A stretch of DNA of 64,000 nucleotides from Lutibacter oricola (lineage in GTDB: Bacteria; Bacteroidota; Bacteroidia; Flavobacteriales; Flavobacteriaceae), in NCBI RefSeq assembly GCF_900106565.1, contig NZ_FNNJ01000001.1, positions 372,001 to 436,000 of the forward strand. Reading direction: 5' to 3'. The position numbers were made by a program, and so were the translations under genes. The notes under the pieces were generated by a model. The model was not told where the DNA came from, made no database searches, and worked only from the letters and a program-made list of their open reading frames with translations. Shown here piece by piece: positions 5,789-11,000 of the stretch (positions are counted from its first letter, which is position 1; every line of letters starts with the position of its first letter).

Positions 5789-5952
5789 ATTTTTTGATTT
5801 TTTTTATTAGACGTAATTAAGGCTACAAACCTACATAATTTTTTTGTTTTTAGTTTTTTTACTTTAAAATATGTAAATAACATAACTATAAGTTTATAAT
5901 TTATTTAACAACTGTAACATTTAACCAGATGCATGATACTAATAAAACAGTG

Positions 5953-5960
5953 TATATTTG
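5953..5960 (+). promoter_or_regulatory. TAnnTTTG -7 box before the TerB-DnaJ gene
   Basis: TATATTTG matches the Bacteroidota -7 consensus exactly and lies 15 bases before the ATG at 5976. No clear TTG -33 element is seen at the usual spacing. Confidence 0.55.
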
Positions 5961-5975
5961 AATTTTTAAAATAAT

Positions 5976-6716
5976 ATGGGAAATTTTGTAAAATGGTTAG
6001 GTGCAGGATTAGGATTTGCATTTGGCGGATATATTGGTAGCATTTTAGGTTATGTTGCAGGGAGTTTTATAGATGGTTTTACGCGAGAAGATGTGCAAAG
6101 AGCCGAAACTTACAGAGGTTCGAGTAGAAGTACACAATCTGGTGATTTTGAAATTAGCTTGTTGTTGCTTTCTGCAACCGTAATAAAAGCAGATGGTAAA
6201 ATTGATCAGCGAGAATTAAATTATGTTAGAAATCATTTTAAAAGTATGTATGGCGAAGAAAGAGCAAGCCACGCTTTTAAATTATTTAATGGTTTTATAA
6301 AAAACAACAATGTTTCTACAAGGCAAGTTTGTATGCAAATTCGTCAAAATATGACACACGCATCTCGTTTGCAATTAATTCATTTTTTATTTGGAATTGC
6401 TAAAGCAGATGGTATTGTTACAGAATCTGAAGTGAGTGCTATAAAAACTATTGCGGGTTATTTATATATAAGTCAACACGATTTCGAATCTATTAAAGCA
6501 ATGTTTTACGATAGTTCTGATAGCTCGTATAAAATTTTAGAAATTGAAAAATCTGCTACAAATGATGAGGTTAAAAAGGCTTATAGAAAAATGGTAAAAA
6601 AGTATCACCCAGATAAATTACGTCATTTAGGTGAAGAACATTTAAAAGGTGCTGAAGAAAAATTTAGGCAAGTACAAAAGGCTTATGAGCATATTCAGAA
6701 AGAAAGAAAAATATAA
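5976..6716 (+). CDS. TerB/DnaJ-domain protein (DjlA-like)
   Basis: A 246-residue protein with three parts. Residues 8-34 form a Gly-rich hydrophobic stretch (LGAGLGFAFGGYIG...) that looks like a glycine-zipper membrane segment. Residues about 57-170 form a TerB-like helical domain with the paired acidic motif ATVIKADGKID and its repeat IAKADGIVTESE. The C-terminus is a J domain (about 180-246) with the key HPD tripeptide at 211-213 in KKYHPDKLRHLG. DjlA proteins have the same order: membrane anchor, TerB, J domain. It probably recruits DnaK at the inner membrane. It is a single-gene unit followed by the module-containing gap at 6717-7035. Confidence 0.88.
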   Translation: MGNFVKWLGAGLGFAFGGYIGSILGYVAGSFIDGFTREDVQRAETYRGSSRSTQSGDFEISLLLLSATVIKADGKIDQRELNYVRNHFKSMYGEERASHAFKLFNGFIKNNNVSTRQVCMQIRQNMTHASRLQLIHFLFGIAKADGIVTESEVSAIKTIAGYLYISQHDFESIKAMFYDSSDSSYKILEIEKSATNDEVKKAYRKMVKKYHPDKLRHLGEEHLKGAEEKFRQVQKAYEHIQKERKI

Positions 6717-6760
6717 TTTGCTGTAAATGTGACTATCAAAAAAAAAGAGTGTCATATAAT

Positions 6761-6864
6761 AGTAAATAAAAATTAATTAAGGGAAACTAAAATAATTTTT
6801 ACCCCAAATAAGAATTATCAGCCCGAAGATTAGTTGAGCGTCTCATTTTTGAGACGCTTTTTTT
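6761..6864 (+). ncRNA. Putative small RNA, module 1
   Basis: Inferred from a promoter-like box at 6729-6760 and a factor-independent terminator at 6837-6864. The transcript would be roughly 95-100 bases. The exact start is a guess. It could instead be only an untranslated tail of the DnaJ gene. Confidence 0.35.
6837..6864 (+). terminator. Strong hairpin terminator, module 1
   Basis: AGCGTCTCA (6837-6845) pairs perfectly with TGAGACGCT (6850-6858) across a TTTT loop, then a run of seven T. It can end both the TerB-DnaJ transcript and the putative small RNA. Confidence 0.88.
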
Positions 6865-6926
6865 ATGGGTTAATTTGTTAAAATTTAAACAATTGTGACC
6901 AATTAAAAAAATTAGTGTCATATAAT

Positions 6927-7037
6927 TGGTTAGTAAATTAGAATTAAGTTAAGTAAGAAAGTTTAATGTTTAAATTGGTGGAATGCCAATGAGAATGTTG
7001 ATTACAATTAAAGCGCCCTTTTTAGGGTGCTTTTTTT
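6927..7037 (+). ncRNA. Putative small RNA, module 2
   Basis: Inferred from the second GTGAC-21-TATAAT box (6895-6926) and the terminator ending at 7037. Because terminator 1 already stops upstream transcription, a second plus-strand terminator here implies a separate plus-strand transcript. An internal hairpin, ATTGG/CCAAT, is visible near 6974-6990. No family was recognised. Confidence 0.38.
7012..7037 (+). terminator. Hairpin terminator, module 2
   Basis: AGCGCCCT (7012-7019) pairs with AGGGTGCT (7024-7031, one G-T pair) and is followed by seven T. The T run is only on the plus strand, so it does not primarily serve the minus-strand gene ending at 7036. Confidence 0.82.
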
Positions 7038-7953
7038 ATTTTAAATAGTTTGCTACATCTTGAGGTCCTTCAAGTATGGTTTTAACTATTTGTAATGTGC
7101 CATCTTTTGTAGAGATAGTGTGCCATTTTATTAAAGAAATTTGCATATCTACAATTTCAATACCTGTTATAGACCTTGGGTGTACGCAACTACCATCGTT
7201 AAAATAAGGTAGATCGTTTGGTTCGGGAAAACGAGGTCTGTGTGTATGGCCTGCAATAACCATTTGATTGTTATTGTTTTCAATCCATTTTTTTAATCTG
7301 CGTTCAACCTTAATTAATTCTTTGTAATTTTTAGCAGGACTAGTTGGGTCTTTTATACCCATAATTTGTAAAGGTTTCCAAAGTGCTCTAACTAAAAAAC
7401 GACTAAATTTCCAAAGCACATAATTAAAAAAGTCTGCTTGATGTCCGTGAATTAGTAATATGTTTTTATCATATCCCTCAACATCTAAAATAATTCCTTC
7501 ATCAAATTTTAATCCTTTTAATAAGTCTTTGTCAGTTGCAGTTACAGCATCAAAATAAGAGCCTAGTAATTTGTCAACCCTTTTTTCTTTACTTAAAACC
7601 ATATCATGGTTTCCCCAAATCATATGAAGCTTATCTTTTAAATGAAAATCGCGTAGCAATAAAAAAATGTTTTTATGCGCTTCAAAAATTTCACTAAAAT
7701 CTCTGTTTTCCCAAAGCTCTATTCCATCTCCTAATTCTACATATGTAAAATCATTTTCATAATAACTTCTTAAGGCGTGAAAGTAAATGTTTCTGTTATG
7801 TACAAAATCGTCGGCATAACTATTATCACCTCTATGGCAATCACTAAAAAAAACAAATTTAGAGTCGCAATTCAGCTTAATTTTTTTAGCATTTTTATAT
7901 GAATTTGATATAATTTGTTGAATCATTGTGTCACAGATATTTGTTTCAACCAT
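7036..7953 (-). CDS. Calcineurin-like metallophosphoesterase
   Basis: A 305-residue cytoplasmic phosphoesterase with the five family blocks in order: FFSDCHRGDN, ELGDGIELWEN, WGNHDMV, LIHGHQADF and AGHTHRPRF. These supply the Asp, His and Asn ligands of a two-metal centre. The overall shape resembles UDP-2,3-diacylglucosamine hydrolases (LpxH/LpxG type), but nothing in the context ties it to lipid A, so the substrate is left open. The start at 7953 gives MVETNICD; an internal ATG nine codons later (MIQQII) is an alternative. It is divergent from ileS, with 118 bases between them. Confidence 0.85.
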   Translation of the reverse strand: MVETNICDTMIQQIISNSYKNAKKIKLNCDSKFVFFSDCHRGDNSYADDFVHNRNIYFHALRSYYENDFTYVELGDGIELWENRDFSEIFEAHKNIFLLLRDFHLKDKLHMIWGNHDMVLSKEKRVDKLLGSYFDAVTATDKDLLKGLKFDEGIILDVEGYDKNILLIHGHQADFFNYVLWKFSRFLVRALWKPLQIMGIKDPTSPAKNYKELIKVERRLKKWIENNNNQMVIAGHTHRPRFPEPNDLPYFNDGSCVHPRSITGIEIVDMQISLIKWHTISTKDGTLQIVKTILEGPQDVANYLK

Positions 7954-8071
7954 AAACTTAAAATAAAACTTCTAGAAACAACTATTTTTAGCTGTATATT
8001 TTGCTATTTTCAGCACTATTATTTTATCAAAAATGCTTAATTTCGCAAACTAATTGATTTAAGGGTAAAAA

Positions 8072-11000
8072 ATGAGTAAAAAATTTAGAGAATATAAGGG
8101 GTTGAACCTCACTAAAGTAGCAGATGAGACTTTAGCATTTTGGGAAGCAGAAAATATTTTCGATAAAAGTATAGCTACTAGAGATGAAAATAAGCCATAT
8201 GTATTTTTTGAAGGACCACCTTCGGCAAATGGTTTACCAGGTATTCATCACGTTATGGCACGTGCTATTAAAGACATCTTTTGTCGTTACAAAACCTTAC
8301 AAGGCTTTCAAGTAAAACGTAAAGCTGGTTGGGATACTCACGGATTACCTATTGAATTAGGTGTTGAAAAAGAATTAGGAATTACCAAAGAAGATATTGG
8401 TAAAAAAATTACGGTTGAAGAATACAACCAAGCTTGTAGAACTGCAGTAATGCGCTATACGGATGTTTGGAACGATCTTACCAGAAAAGTTGGTTATTGG
8501 GTAGATATGGAAGATCCGTATGTGACTTATAAACCAAAATATATGGAGACTGTTTGGTATTTGTTAAGTCAGTTGTATAAAAAAGGATTGATTTACAAAG
8601 GGTATACAATTCAACCATATTCGCCAAAAGCAGGTACAGGTTTAAGTTCTCATGAGTTAAATCAACCAGGAACTTATCAAGATGTAACTGATACAACAGT
8701 TGTTGCGCAGTTTAAGGCGTTAAAAGAAACATTACCGGAGTTTTTGCAAAAAGTTGAAGGTGATGTACACTTTTTAGCTTGGACAACAACTCCTTGGACA
8801 CTTCCTTCTAATACAGCATTAACTGTTGGGAAAAAGATAGATTATGTATTAGTAAAATCTTTTAATCAATATACTTTTGAACCAATTAGTGTTATTCTTG
8901 CTAAAAATTTAGTTGGAAAACAGTTTGGTAAAAAATTCTTTACTGTTGAAAGTGAAGCAGAATTAGCTAGTTATAAAGCAGAAGATAAAAAGATTCCTTT
9001 TATTGTTGTAAAAGAATTTAAAGGAGCAGATATTTTAGAAGCAAAATACGAACAGTTAATGCCGTATGCATTGCCTTGCGAAAATCCAGAAAATGCATTT
9101 AGAGTAATTGCTGGAGATTTTGTTACTACAGAAGATGGTACCGGAATTGTACATACAGCTCCAACATTTGGTGCGGATGATGCAATGGTAGCTAAACAAG
9201 CAACACCAGAAGTACCACCAATGTTAGTTTTTGATGATAATGGAAACCAAGTTCCTTTAGTAGATTTACAAGGGAAATTTACCAAACATATGGGTGAAGA
9301 ATTTGGAGGTAAATATGTGAAGAACGAATACTACAATGAGGGAGAAGAACCTGCACGTCCTATGGATGTTGAGTTAGCTATTCGTTTAAAAGAAGAAAAT
9401 AAAGCATTTCACGTAGAAAAATACCGTCACAGTTACCCACATTGTTGGAGAACTGATAAACCAATTTTATACTATCCGTTAGATTCTTGGTTTGTAAAAG
9501 TGACTGATAAGCGTGATAAAATGTTCGAATTGAACGATACTATTAACTGGAAACCAAAATCTACTGGAGAAGGTCGTTTTGGAAACTGGTTAAAAAATGC
9601 GAACGACTGGAACTTATCTCGTTCACGTTATTGGGGAATTCCATTACCAATTTGGAGAACAGAAGATGGTACCGAAGAAATTATGATTGGTTCTGTTGAA
9701 GAATTAAAAGCTGAAATGGCAAAAGCTGTTGATGCTGGAGTATTAGAAGCTGATATTTTTGCTGATTTTGAAGTTGGAAATATGAGTAACGAAAACTACG
9801 ATAAAATTGACTTACATAAAAATGTAGTTGATGGTATTACGTTAGTTTCACCTTCAGGAAAACCAATGAAACGTGAAAGCGATTTAATTGATGTTTGGTT
9901 CGATTCTGGTTCTATGCCTTATGCACAATGGCATTACCCGTTTGAAAATAAAGAATTAATAGACGAGAAAAAATTCTATCCAGCAGACTTTATTGCTGAA
10001 GGGGTAGATCAAACTCGTGGGTGGTTTTATACATTACATGCAATTGGAACAATGGTTTTCGATTCTGTAGCTTATAAAAATGTTGTGTCTAACGGTTTAG
10101 TGCTAGATAAGGAAGGAAAGAAAATGTCGAAGCGTTTAGGAAATGCTGTTGATCCGTTTGAAACAATGGATAAATACGGAGCAGATGCTACACGTTGGTA
10201 TATGATTTCGAATGCAAATCCTTGGGATAACTTAAAGTTTGATGTTGAAGGAATTGATGAGGTTCGTAGAAAATTCTTTGGAACACTATATAACACGTAT
10301 TCATTCTTCTCTTTATATGCAAACTTAGATGGGTTTACATATGCTGAAGATGAAATTGCAATACAAGACAGGCCAGAAATTGACCGCTGGGTATTGTCTG
10401 AATTAAATTCATTAGTAAAAAATGTAGAGAAATTTTACGAAGAATATGAGCCAACAAAAGCAGCTCGTGCTATTCAAGAATTTGTTGGTGAAAATTTAAG
10501 TAACTGGTTTGTTCGTTTAAGTAGAAGACGTTTTTGGAAAGGCGACTACGGTCAAGATAAAATTTCCGCGTACCAAACATTATATACGTGTATGTTAACA
10601 GTTGCTAAATTAGGTTCGCCAATTGCACCTTTCTTTATGGATAATCTTTATAAAGATTTAATAGCAGTTTCAGGTAAAGAAAACTTTGAATCTATACATT
10701 TAGGTGAATTTCCAACAAGTAATGATAGTTTAATTGATAGTAAGTTAGAGCACAAAATGCAACAAGCTCAAAAAATATCATCAATGGTGTTATCACTACG
10801 TAAAAAGGAAATGATAAAAGTACGTCAACCTTTACAACGTGTTATGATTCCTGTTTTGAACGAAGCAGATAGAGAAGAAATTTTAGCAGTTGAAAACTTA
10901 ATAAAATCGGAAGTAAATGTAAAGGAAATTGAGTTAATTGACGATGCTTCAGGTATATTAGTTAAAACTATAAAACCTAATTTTAAAGTATTAGGACCTA

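Follow-up and report, generated by a model that had tools for sequence, protein, structure and literature searches.

The short RNAs MicA, RybB and VrrA of enterobacteria and Vibrio are transcribed under the control of sigma-E, end in an intrinsic terminator and depend on Hfq. The locus described here, found in a 64 kb (64,000 nucleotides) stretch of the Lutibacter oricola genome that we call the window, resembles these RNAs in having its own promoters, predicted to be read by an envelope-stress ECF sigma factor, and intrinsic terminators, and the sigma-E response with MicA and RybB may be the nearest known logic. The two cases differ in that the sigma-E RNAs are Hfq-dependent, whereas Hfq was not found in the Lutibacter genome, and the resemblance is one of genetic layout.

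The LhrC RNAs of Listeria lie in tandem order and are under the control of LisRK. LhrC1-5 are described as multicopy RNAs of about 110 nt with C-rich motifs, which are induced by envelope stress and do not require Hfq (PMC6794450). The units of the window and of its relatives are likewise multicopy and similar in length, and many carry C-rich motifs, but they belong to another phylum and another kind of control, and the C-rich parts of the Lutibacter units lie partly in a predicted stem and are absent from the second unit of the window. Within Bacteroidota, FopS and GibS of Bacteroides thetaiotaomicron are presented as a paralogous small RNA family (PMC11697453); unit 1 of the window, however, scores 28.2 bits with GibS, where the Rfam gathering score is 115, and part of the aligned stretch consists of promoter bases. 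In Flavobacterium psychrophilum, the putative regulatory RNA Rfp11 is reported behind the ECF motif SM6, a motif defined by its CGT box and used by T9SS and Band-7 genes (PMC9723704). As a putative RNA with an ECF-type promoter, Rfp11 is a parallel within the bacterial family, but as characterized in that source it differs by the CGT-box motif and by the lack of any description of tandem units.

For the sensor side, a model may be provided by SigX-CfrX-CmpX of Pseudomonas aeruginosa, where the genes for an ECF sigma factor, a small protein and an MscS homologue are described as neighbours connected with membrane stress, cfrX-cmpX being a SigX target and CfrX and CmpX suspected regulators of SigX (PMC7641640). 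The Lutibacter ECF sigma gene likewise neighbours genes for a small protein and an MscS homologue, but the gene order is different, the match to the SigX model stays below its cut-off, and the likeness of the small proteins is one of size and place. Our literature search, covering few subscription papers, returned nothing on the promoter motif, on a sigma-MscS pair in Bacteroidetes or Flavobacteriaceae, or on paralogous tandem small RNAs, and nothing on topic, judging from the entries listed, for osmotic regulons and Lutibacter small RNAs. ECF-driven small RNAs, tandem small RNAs and one ECF-linked putative RNA in Flavobacterium (Rfp11) are known already, and what is new within the literature searched is the RNA units themselves, the link to a SigX-like sigma factor in Flavobacteriaceae and an array of ten units.

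Two units on the 3' side of djlA

We consider it quite probable that positions 6729-7042 of the window hold two self-promoted and self-terminated ncRNA genes of a SigX-like ECF membrane-stress regulon, whose products probably pair with mRNAs without Hfq. The features of the locus are as follows.

5976..6716, plus strand: djlA, the upstream TerB-DnaJ (DjlA-like) gene, 246 aa (Pfam TerB and DnaJ); syntenic anchor
6729..6756, plus strand: predicted ECF-type promoter of unit 1, exact match; -35 GTGAC at 6729-6733, -10 GTGTC at 6749-6753, then ATA(TAAT)
6760..6866, plus strand: predicted small RNA 1, about 100 nt (fold and z-score; similar units at the equivalent place in relatives)
6836-6859, plus strand: intrinsic terminator hairpin of unit 1, 10 pairs, T run after it (terminator scan)
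6895..6922, plus strand: predicted ECF-type promoter of unit 2, exact match; -35 GTGAC at 6895-6899, -10 GTGTC at 6915-6919
6926..7042, plus strand: predicted small RNA 2, about 110 nt; body divergent and lacking the C-rich motif, with a terminator of its own, fold z = -3.0
7010-7033, plus strand: intrinsic terminator hairpin of unit 2, 10 pairs, T run after it (terminator scan)
7036..7953, minus strand: downstream convergent metallophosphoesterase-like gene, 305 aa (YfcE-type, weak); second syntenic anchor

The start of small RNA 1 is an estimate, placed roughly 10 nt past the last base of GTGTC, and its predicted fold is an interrupted hairpin with a GGG/CCC step, followed by the terminator. 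Both neighbouring proteins remain below the cut-off of their more specific models: 105 bits against 162 for the upstream protein with the DjlA model of NCBIfam, and 22 bits against 56 for the YfcE-type match of the metallophosphoesterase-like protein. Among named genomes, the upstream protein has its best relatives in Lutibacter, in line with the flavobacterial setting assumed in the earlier note. The earlier note on this DNA had singled out, in each of two units, GTGAC, exactly 21 bases, TATAAT and a T-run hairpin of its own, and this is exact for the units starting at 6729 and 6895, with TATAAT, located inside GTGTCATATAAT, at 6755-6760 and 6921-6926. In the terminator scan of 5900-8100, three T-run hairpins were found against 0.8 expected in shuffles, the third being a weak one at 7345. 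Compared with dinucleotide shuffles, the predicted RNA folds have z = -6.0 for unit 1 and -3.0 for unit 2, the range over 18 units from relatives and the window being -1.4 to -6.0. Both window units thus combine what characterizes ECF-driven RNAs, a predicted ECF promoter of their own and an intrinsic terminator. Across the 64 kb window, Rfam yielded no match at the gathering score (20 sub-gathering matches with E up to 10, the best at 0.046), and no tRNA was found.

The core GTGAC-N15-GTGTC-N-TA, allowing at most one mismatch, occurs twice in the 64 kb window, both times exactly, against 0.09 expected, and none of 100 shuffles had two such sites. Genome-wide, four places match the 32-mer pattern when up to two mismatches are allowed (reversed control: 0), and the window's two are the only exact ones. 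The part that recurs in relatives is GTGAC-N15-GTGTC, whose layout (ECF spacing and a GTC-type -10) we take to be an ECF promoter form, whereas TATAAT is not kept. Reading TATAAT as a sigma-70 element was ruled out by the spacing of 21 and by its loss in relatives. Judging from sequence, the window promoters are of the ECF type, GTGAC-N15-GTGTC, and not of the sigma-70 type, with TATAAT being incidental. The proposal of a small RNA pair in the earlier note is hence strengthened by promoter conservation, synteny and terminators, but the promoter behind it is ECF-type and not what TATAAT suggests.

Conservation of the units and of their RNA part

A close relative (E <= 1e-30) of the ECF sigma gene discussed in the next section is present in 15 of 38 Lutibacter genomes. 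We read the 3' side of djlA in these and in 15 sigma-negative genomes (8 were left out; G047 was counted with one mismatch), and a unit with motif and terminator was found in 13 of the 15 sigma-positive genomes and in one of the 15 sigma-negative ones. The loss of box and hairpin in close relatives, which the earlier note had named as speaking against it, is thus not what is seen, both being kept in those 13 genomes. Complete tandem pairs are found in the window and at L101, L112 and L191; at L104/L185, one unit is complete and the other has a decayed promoter. L. flavus (G237) carries the sigma gene together with two units. The sigma gene is present in G200 and G206 with no unit 3' of djlA, the sigma frame of G206 (L182) being interrupted early. 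In G210 (L. oceani) the reverse holds: the motif and its unit are kept, but the nearest sigma match, at 28% identity, is not a close relative. The bodies differ, as the earlier note had stated in arguing for an old duplication or different targets, in the window only; at L101 the two units share most of body and terminator, and the duplication therefore seems to recur.

In four sigma-negative genomes (G239, G214, G249 and G216) there is a similar-looking body without the ECF motif, so the RNA may not be an ECF target only; these bodies score 29 to 45 bits with the model R1 introduced below, which falls within the range of lone terminators. G216 has TATATTTG, which resembles the flavobacterial housekeeping box, described as TAnnTTTG (PMC9723704). 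At L107 (4739-4890; = L193), a similar-looking RNA body lies behind the housekeeping-type TATATTTG with no ECF motif, possibly reflecting a promoter swap. Other details of the djlA side include an extra terminator-like hairpin between djlA and the ECF promoter at L114/L197 and L121, perhaps a djlA terminator or a decayed unit, and, at L115 (2396-2780), a further exact copy of the core motif some 340 nt beyond the first one 3' of djlA.

The alignment of all 18 units with MAFFT (A2) misaligned the body, and pair counts and the model R1 come from ten typical units (A3), the eight left out being L121, L115, L110, both units of L191, the second of L112, L208 and window unit 2. All ten share an interrupted hairpin, the body consisting of an outer helix and the GGG/CCC step, followed by the terminator, and 91.8% of cells are paired in this structure as opposed to 40.9-55.5% when it is slid. 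The covariation that the earlier note had proposed as a check is only partly there: five pairs are changed on both sides, a number reached by 4 of 500 shuffles, three of them belonging to the terminator and two to the outer helix, but the latter come solely from the sister-species pair L188/L189, and further pair types in the ten-unit alignment are not above the level of shuffles (225/500). As far as the aligned sequences indicate, the terminator is well supported and the body helix weakly to moderately so. C-rich stretches occur in many, but not all, units and are partly paired in the predicted folds; window unit 2 has the GGTTAGT start common to many units and lacks the C-rich part.

With model R1, unit 1, itself a member of the training set, scores 81 bits; unit 2 scores 37 bits, within the range of lone terminators elsewhere, so that its kinship rests on promoter and place. 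Across the family, R1 has matches at E <= 0.01 in 50 of 299 genomes. Apart from the match in the window itself, we read 29 R1 loci, among them the already known Lutibacter body of G239 (L222); of the other 28, only L228 is accompanied by the motif (at most two mismatches), the rest being terminator-like and scoring up to 45 bits. As a family-wide detector R1 was rejected, since its score is dominated by the terminator and its matches outside the genus are mostly plain terminators.

The match at L228 led to an array of ten tandem units in G113 (L249, reverse strand, 8380-9960), a sigma-positive genome in which the array is flanked by the same two neighbours as in the window; the metallophosphoesterase-like neighbour also adjoins in G208, G217, G210 and G237. 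Misassembly is less likely here because the G113 genome is a single contig of 3.4 Mb. Nine units have the exact core and one has it with one mismatch. In every unit at least four T follow a hairpin whose energy is -10 to -18 kcal/mol, although the first two units have poor T runs. When the 80 nt that follow each promoter are compared, the similarity is 98% between units 3 and 4 and 83-90% among units 7 to 9. Tandem copies, each with promoter and terminator, therefore number two in the window and ten in G113. Among 30 motif-rich genomes of other genera, the end of djlA was found in 27 (three were not read), and 26 of these 27 loci have no motif within 900 nt, G113 being the exception. Its congener G360 has the sigma gene and no unit 3' of djlA. 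On the djlA side, the units known so far are thus confined to Lutibacter and a single further genus.

The alternative that survives best, if at a low probability, is that only terminators are involved, the hairpins ending the convergent djlA and metallophosphatase genes and the rest being spacer. Such an arrangement would agree with the first hairpin being the nearest terminator 3' of djlA and the second lying at the stop of the minus-strand gene, as well as with the fast evolution of the bodies and the weight of the terminator in R1. However, it needs no promoter, yet GTGAC-N15-GTGTC precedes the units in 13 of the 15 sigma-positive genomes, and it sits badly with successive terminators on the same strand, two here and ten in G113, each behind its own motif.

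The promoter motif and an ECF sigma gene

One of the motif sites in the window's genome precedes an ECF sigma gene (L098), which forms an operon with genes for a 66-aa protein of no known family, possibly an anti-sigma factor, and a 275-aa MscS-type channel. The operon is divergent to an rpoD-like gene (L098 1323-1895, 2048-2911) in the window's genome, G215, G113, G370 and G360. The sigma protein matches Pfam Sigma70_r2 and Sigma70_r4_2 as well as TIGR02937 above cut-off; the Pseudomonas SigX model PRK09640, at 94.1 bits below its cut-off of 194, has the best E-value among the matches listed (25 of 76 families).

All 15 Lutibacter loci have the motif, with at most one mismatch, 54-66 nt before the point where the aligned sigma frames start; it was identified by script at 14 of them and at the fifteenth, G200 (spacer 14), by eye and then confirmed by scan. 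In other genera it is upstream of the sigma gene at 28 of the 30 loci read, L327 and L312 among them and again with at most one mismatch; the exceptions are L338, which comes from a genome picked as motif-free and whose site is degraded, and L323, which has no site. Controls over the 45 sigma loci gave 0 matches for the reversed motif and 0 inside the gene, and one match each on the opposite strand and in a stretch far upstream. For a consensus, we used the 42 sites with an N15 spacer upstream of sigma genes, in which both boxes are fixed by the search and the flanks alone are independent. T precedes GTGAC in 79%, TT follows it (76% and 93%), and TTA follows GTGTC (86%, 79% and 98%), which leaves TATAAT outside the pattern.

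Exact sites of the core GTGAC-N15-GTGTC-N-TA are found in 127 of 397 family genomes, with up to 12 per genome, and the reversed core matches in about 39 of the 397, at most three times per genome, so that a single site means little and several sites mean much. Given these control hits, we put the possible reach of the regulon at about a quarter of Flavobacteriaceae. The 32-mer pattern, allowing one mismatch, is present in 18 of 199 family genomes (reversed control: 2), and its exact form in a viral collection at four loci, three of them alike. Sites reading GTGACCAATT(A/T)AAAAA, much like the unit 2 promoter, open the first unit at L101 and L112 and the second at L191, and a near-identical 32-mer, GTTACAAAWTAACGTTGTAYGCGTCATATAAT, is shared by seven Lutibacter genomes (L057, L071, L079, L080 and others). 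Frames 3' of other motif sites resemble genes for MscS, M48 peptidase, DUF2853, OmpA-like proteins, RpoD and ECF sigma factors, names given by eye except for one DUF2853 (Pfam). At L013 an rpoD-like frame follows the motif at a distance of 109 nt. Another candidate small RNA, with conserved ATGCTATT(T)ATCAATTTAA, then a hairpin of the GGGATGTAA/TTACATCCC type and, after it, a T run, follows the motif at L010, L255 (1501 onward, plus strand) and L274 (1501 onward, reverse strand), in G044, G316 and G258 from two genera.

Sigma gene and motif occur together. In a comparison of two sets of 30 further family genomes, one a selection from those having four or more sites and the other chosen for lacking any, the sigma gene (E <= 1e-30) is present in 30/30 of the motif-rich and 1/30 of the motif-free ones (Fisher p 5e-16, with genomes counted as independent and kinship uncorrected). 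The likely reader of the window promoters, as these sequence comparisons suggest, is the SigX-like ECF sigma factor encoded with the MscS channel. A transcription activator binding the sites in place of a sigma factor is slightly less probable still than the terminator-only case. GTGAC and GTGTC are indeed near-repeats two helical turns apart, and can be seen as a 20-bp direct repeat, but the layout fits the ECF promoter form, and the gene that co-occurs with the sites, and is itself preceded by one, encodes an ECF sigma factor, sigma being the only gene for which co-occurrence was examined.

The proposed regulon

According to the reading that we favour, with two ncRNA genes under the SigX-like sigma factor, membrane tension or envelope stress would release the sigma factor, which would then switch on both RNAs, genes for envelope and stress functions, and the operon that encodes it. 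The RNAs would pair with mRNAs and probably lower some surface or membrane proteins, and they would do so without Hfq, as PF17209 has no match in the window's genome (99.6% complete), the same search having found Hfq, as a control, in 5 of 14 genomes. It is highly improbable that the transcripts are instead mRNAs of very short peptides, for although some other motif sites precede short frames and unit 2 has an 8-codon ATG frame (6966) and a 21-codon frame (6983-7048, which crosses the terminator and passes the predicted RNA end), 6717-7035 has no plus-strand frame of at least 40 aa, and unit 1 has no ATG frame of at least five codons, just TTG starts inside the terminator.

A wider interpretation, on which we are evenly divided, is that in Lutibacter and one related genus the 3' side of djlA serves as a small RNA nursery, where a cassette made up of ECF promoter, RNA and terminator has been duplicated repeatedly and its RNA part has diversified, giving one to ten copies. 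One channel-linked sigma factor would then command various Hfq-independent RNAs, in a regulon present in perhaps a quarter of Flavobacteriaceae and comprising further, unrelated RNAs. The ten-unit array would be a natural series for the divergence of duplicated RNAs. Our favoured reading predicts both a regulon and its signal, membrane tension, and suggests a possible Hfq-free counterpart of the sigma-E/MicA/RybB response, with an undescribed small RNA family tied to a specific regulator in a large marine bacterial family.
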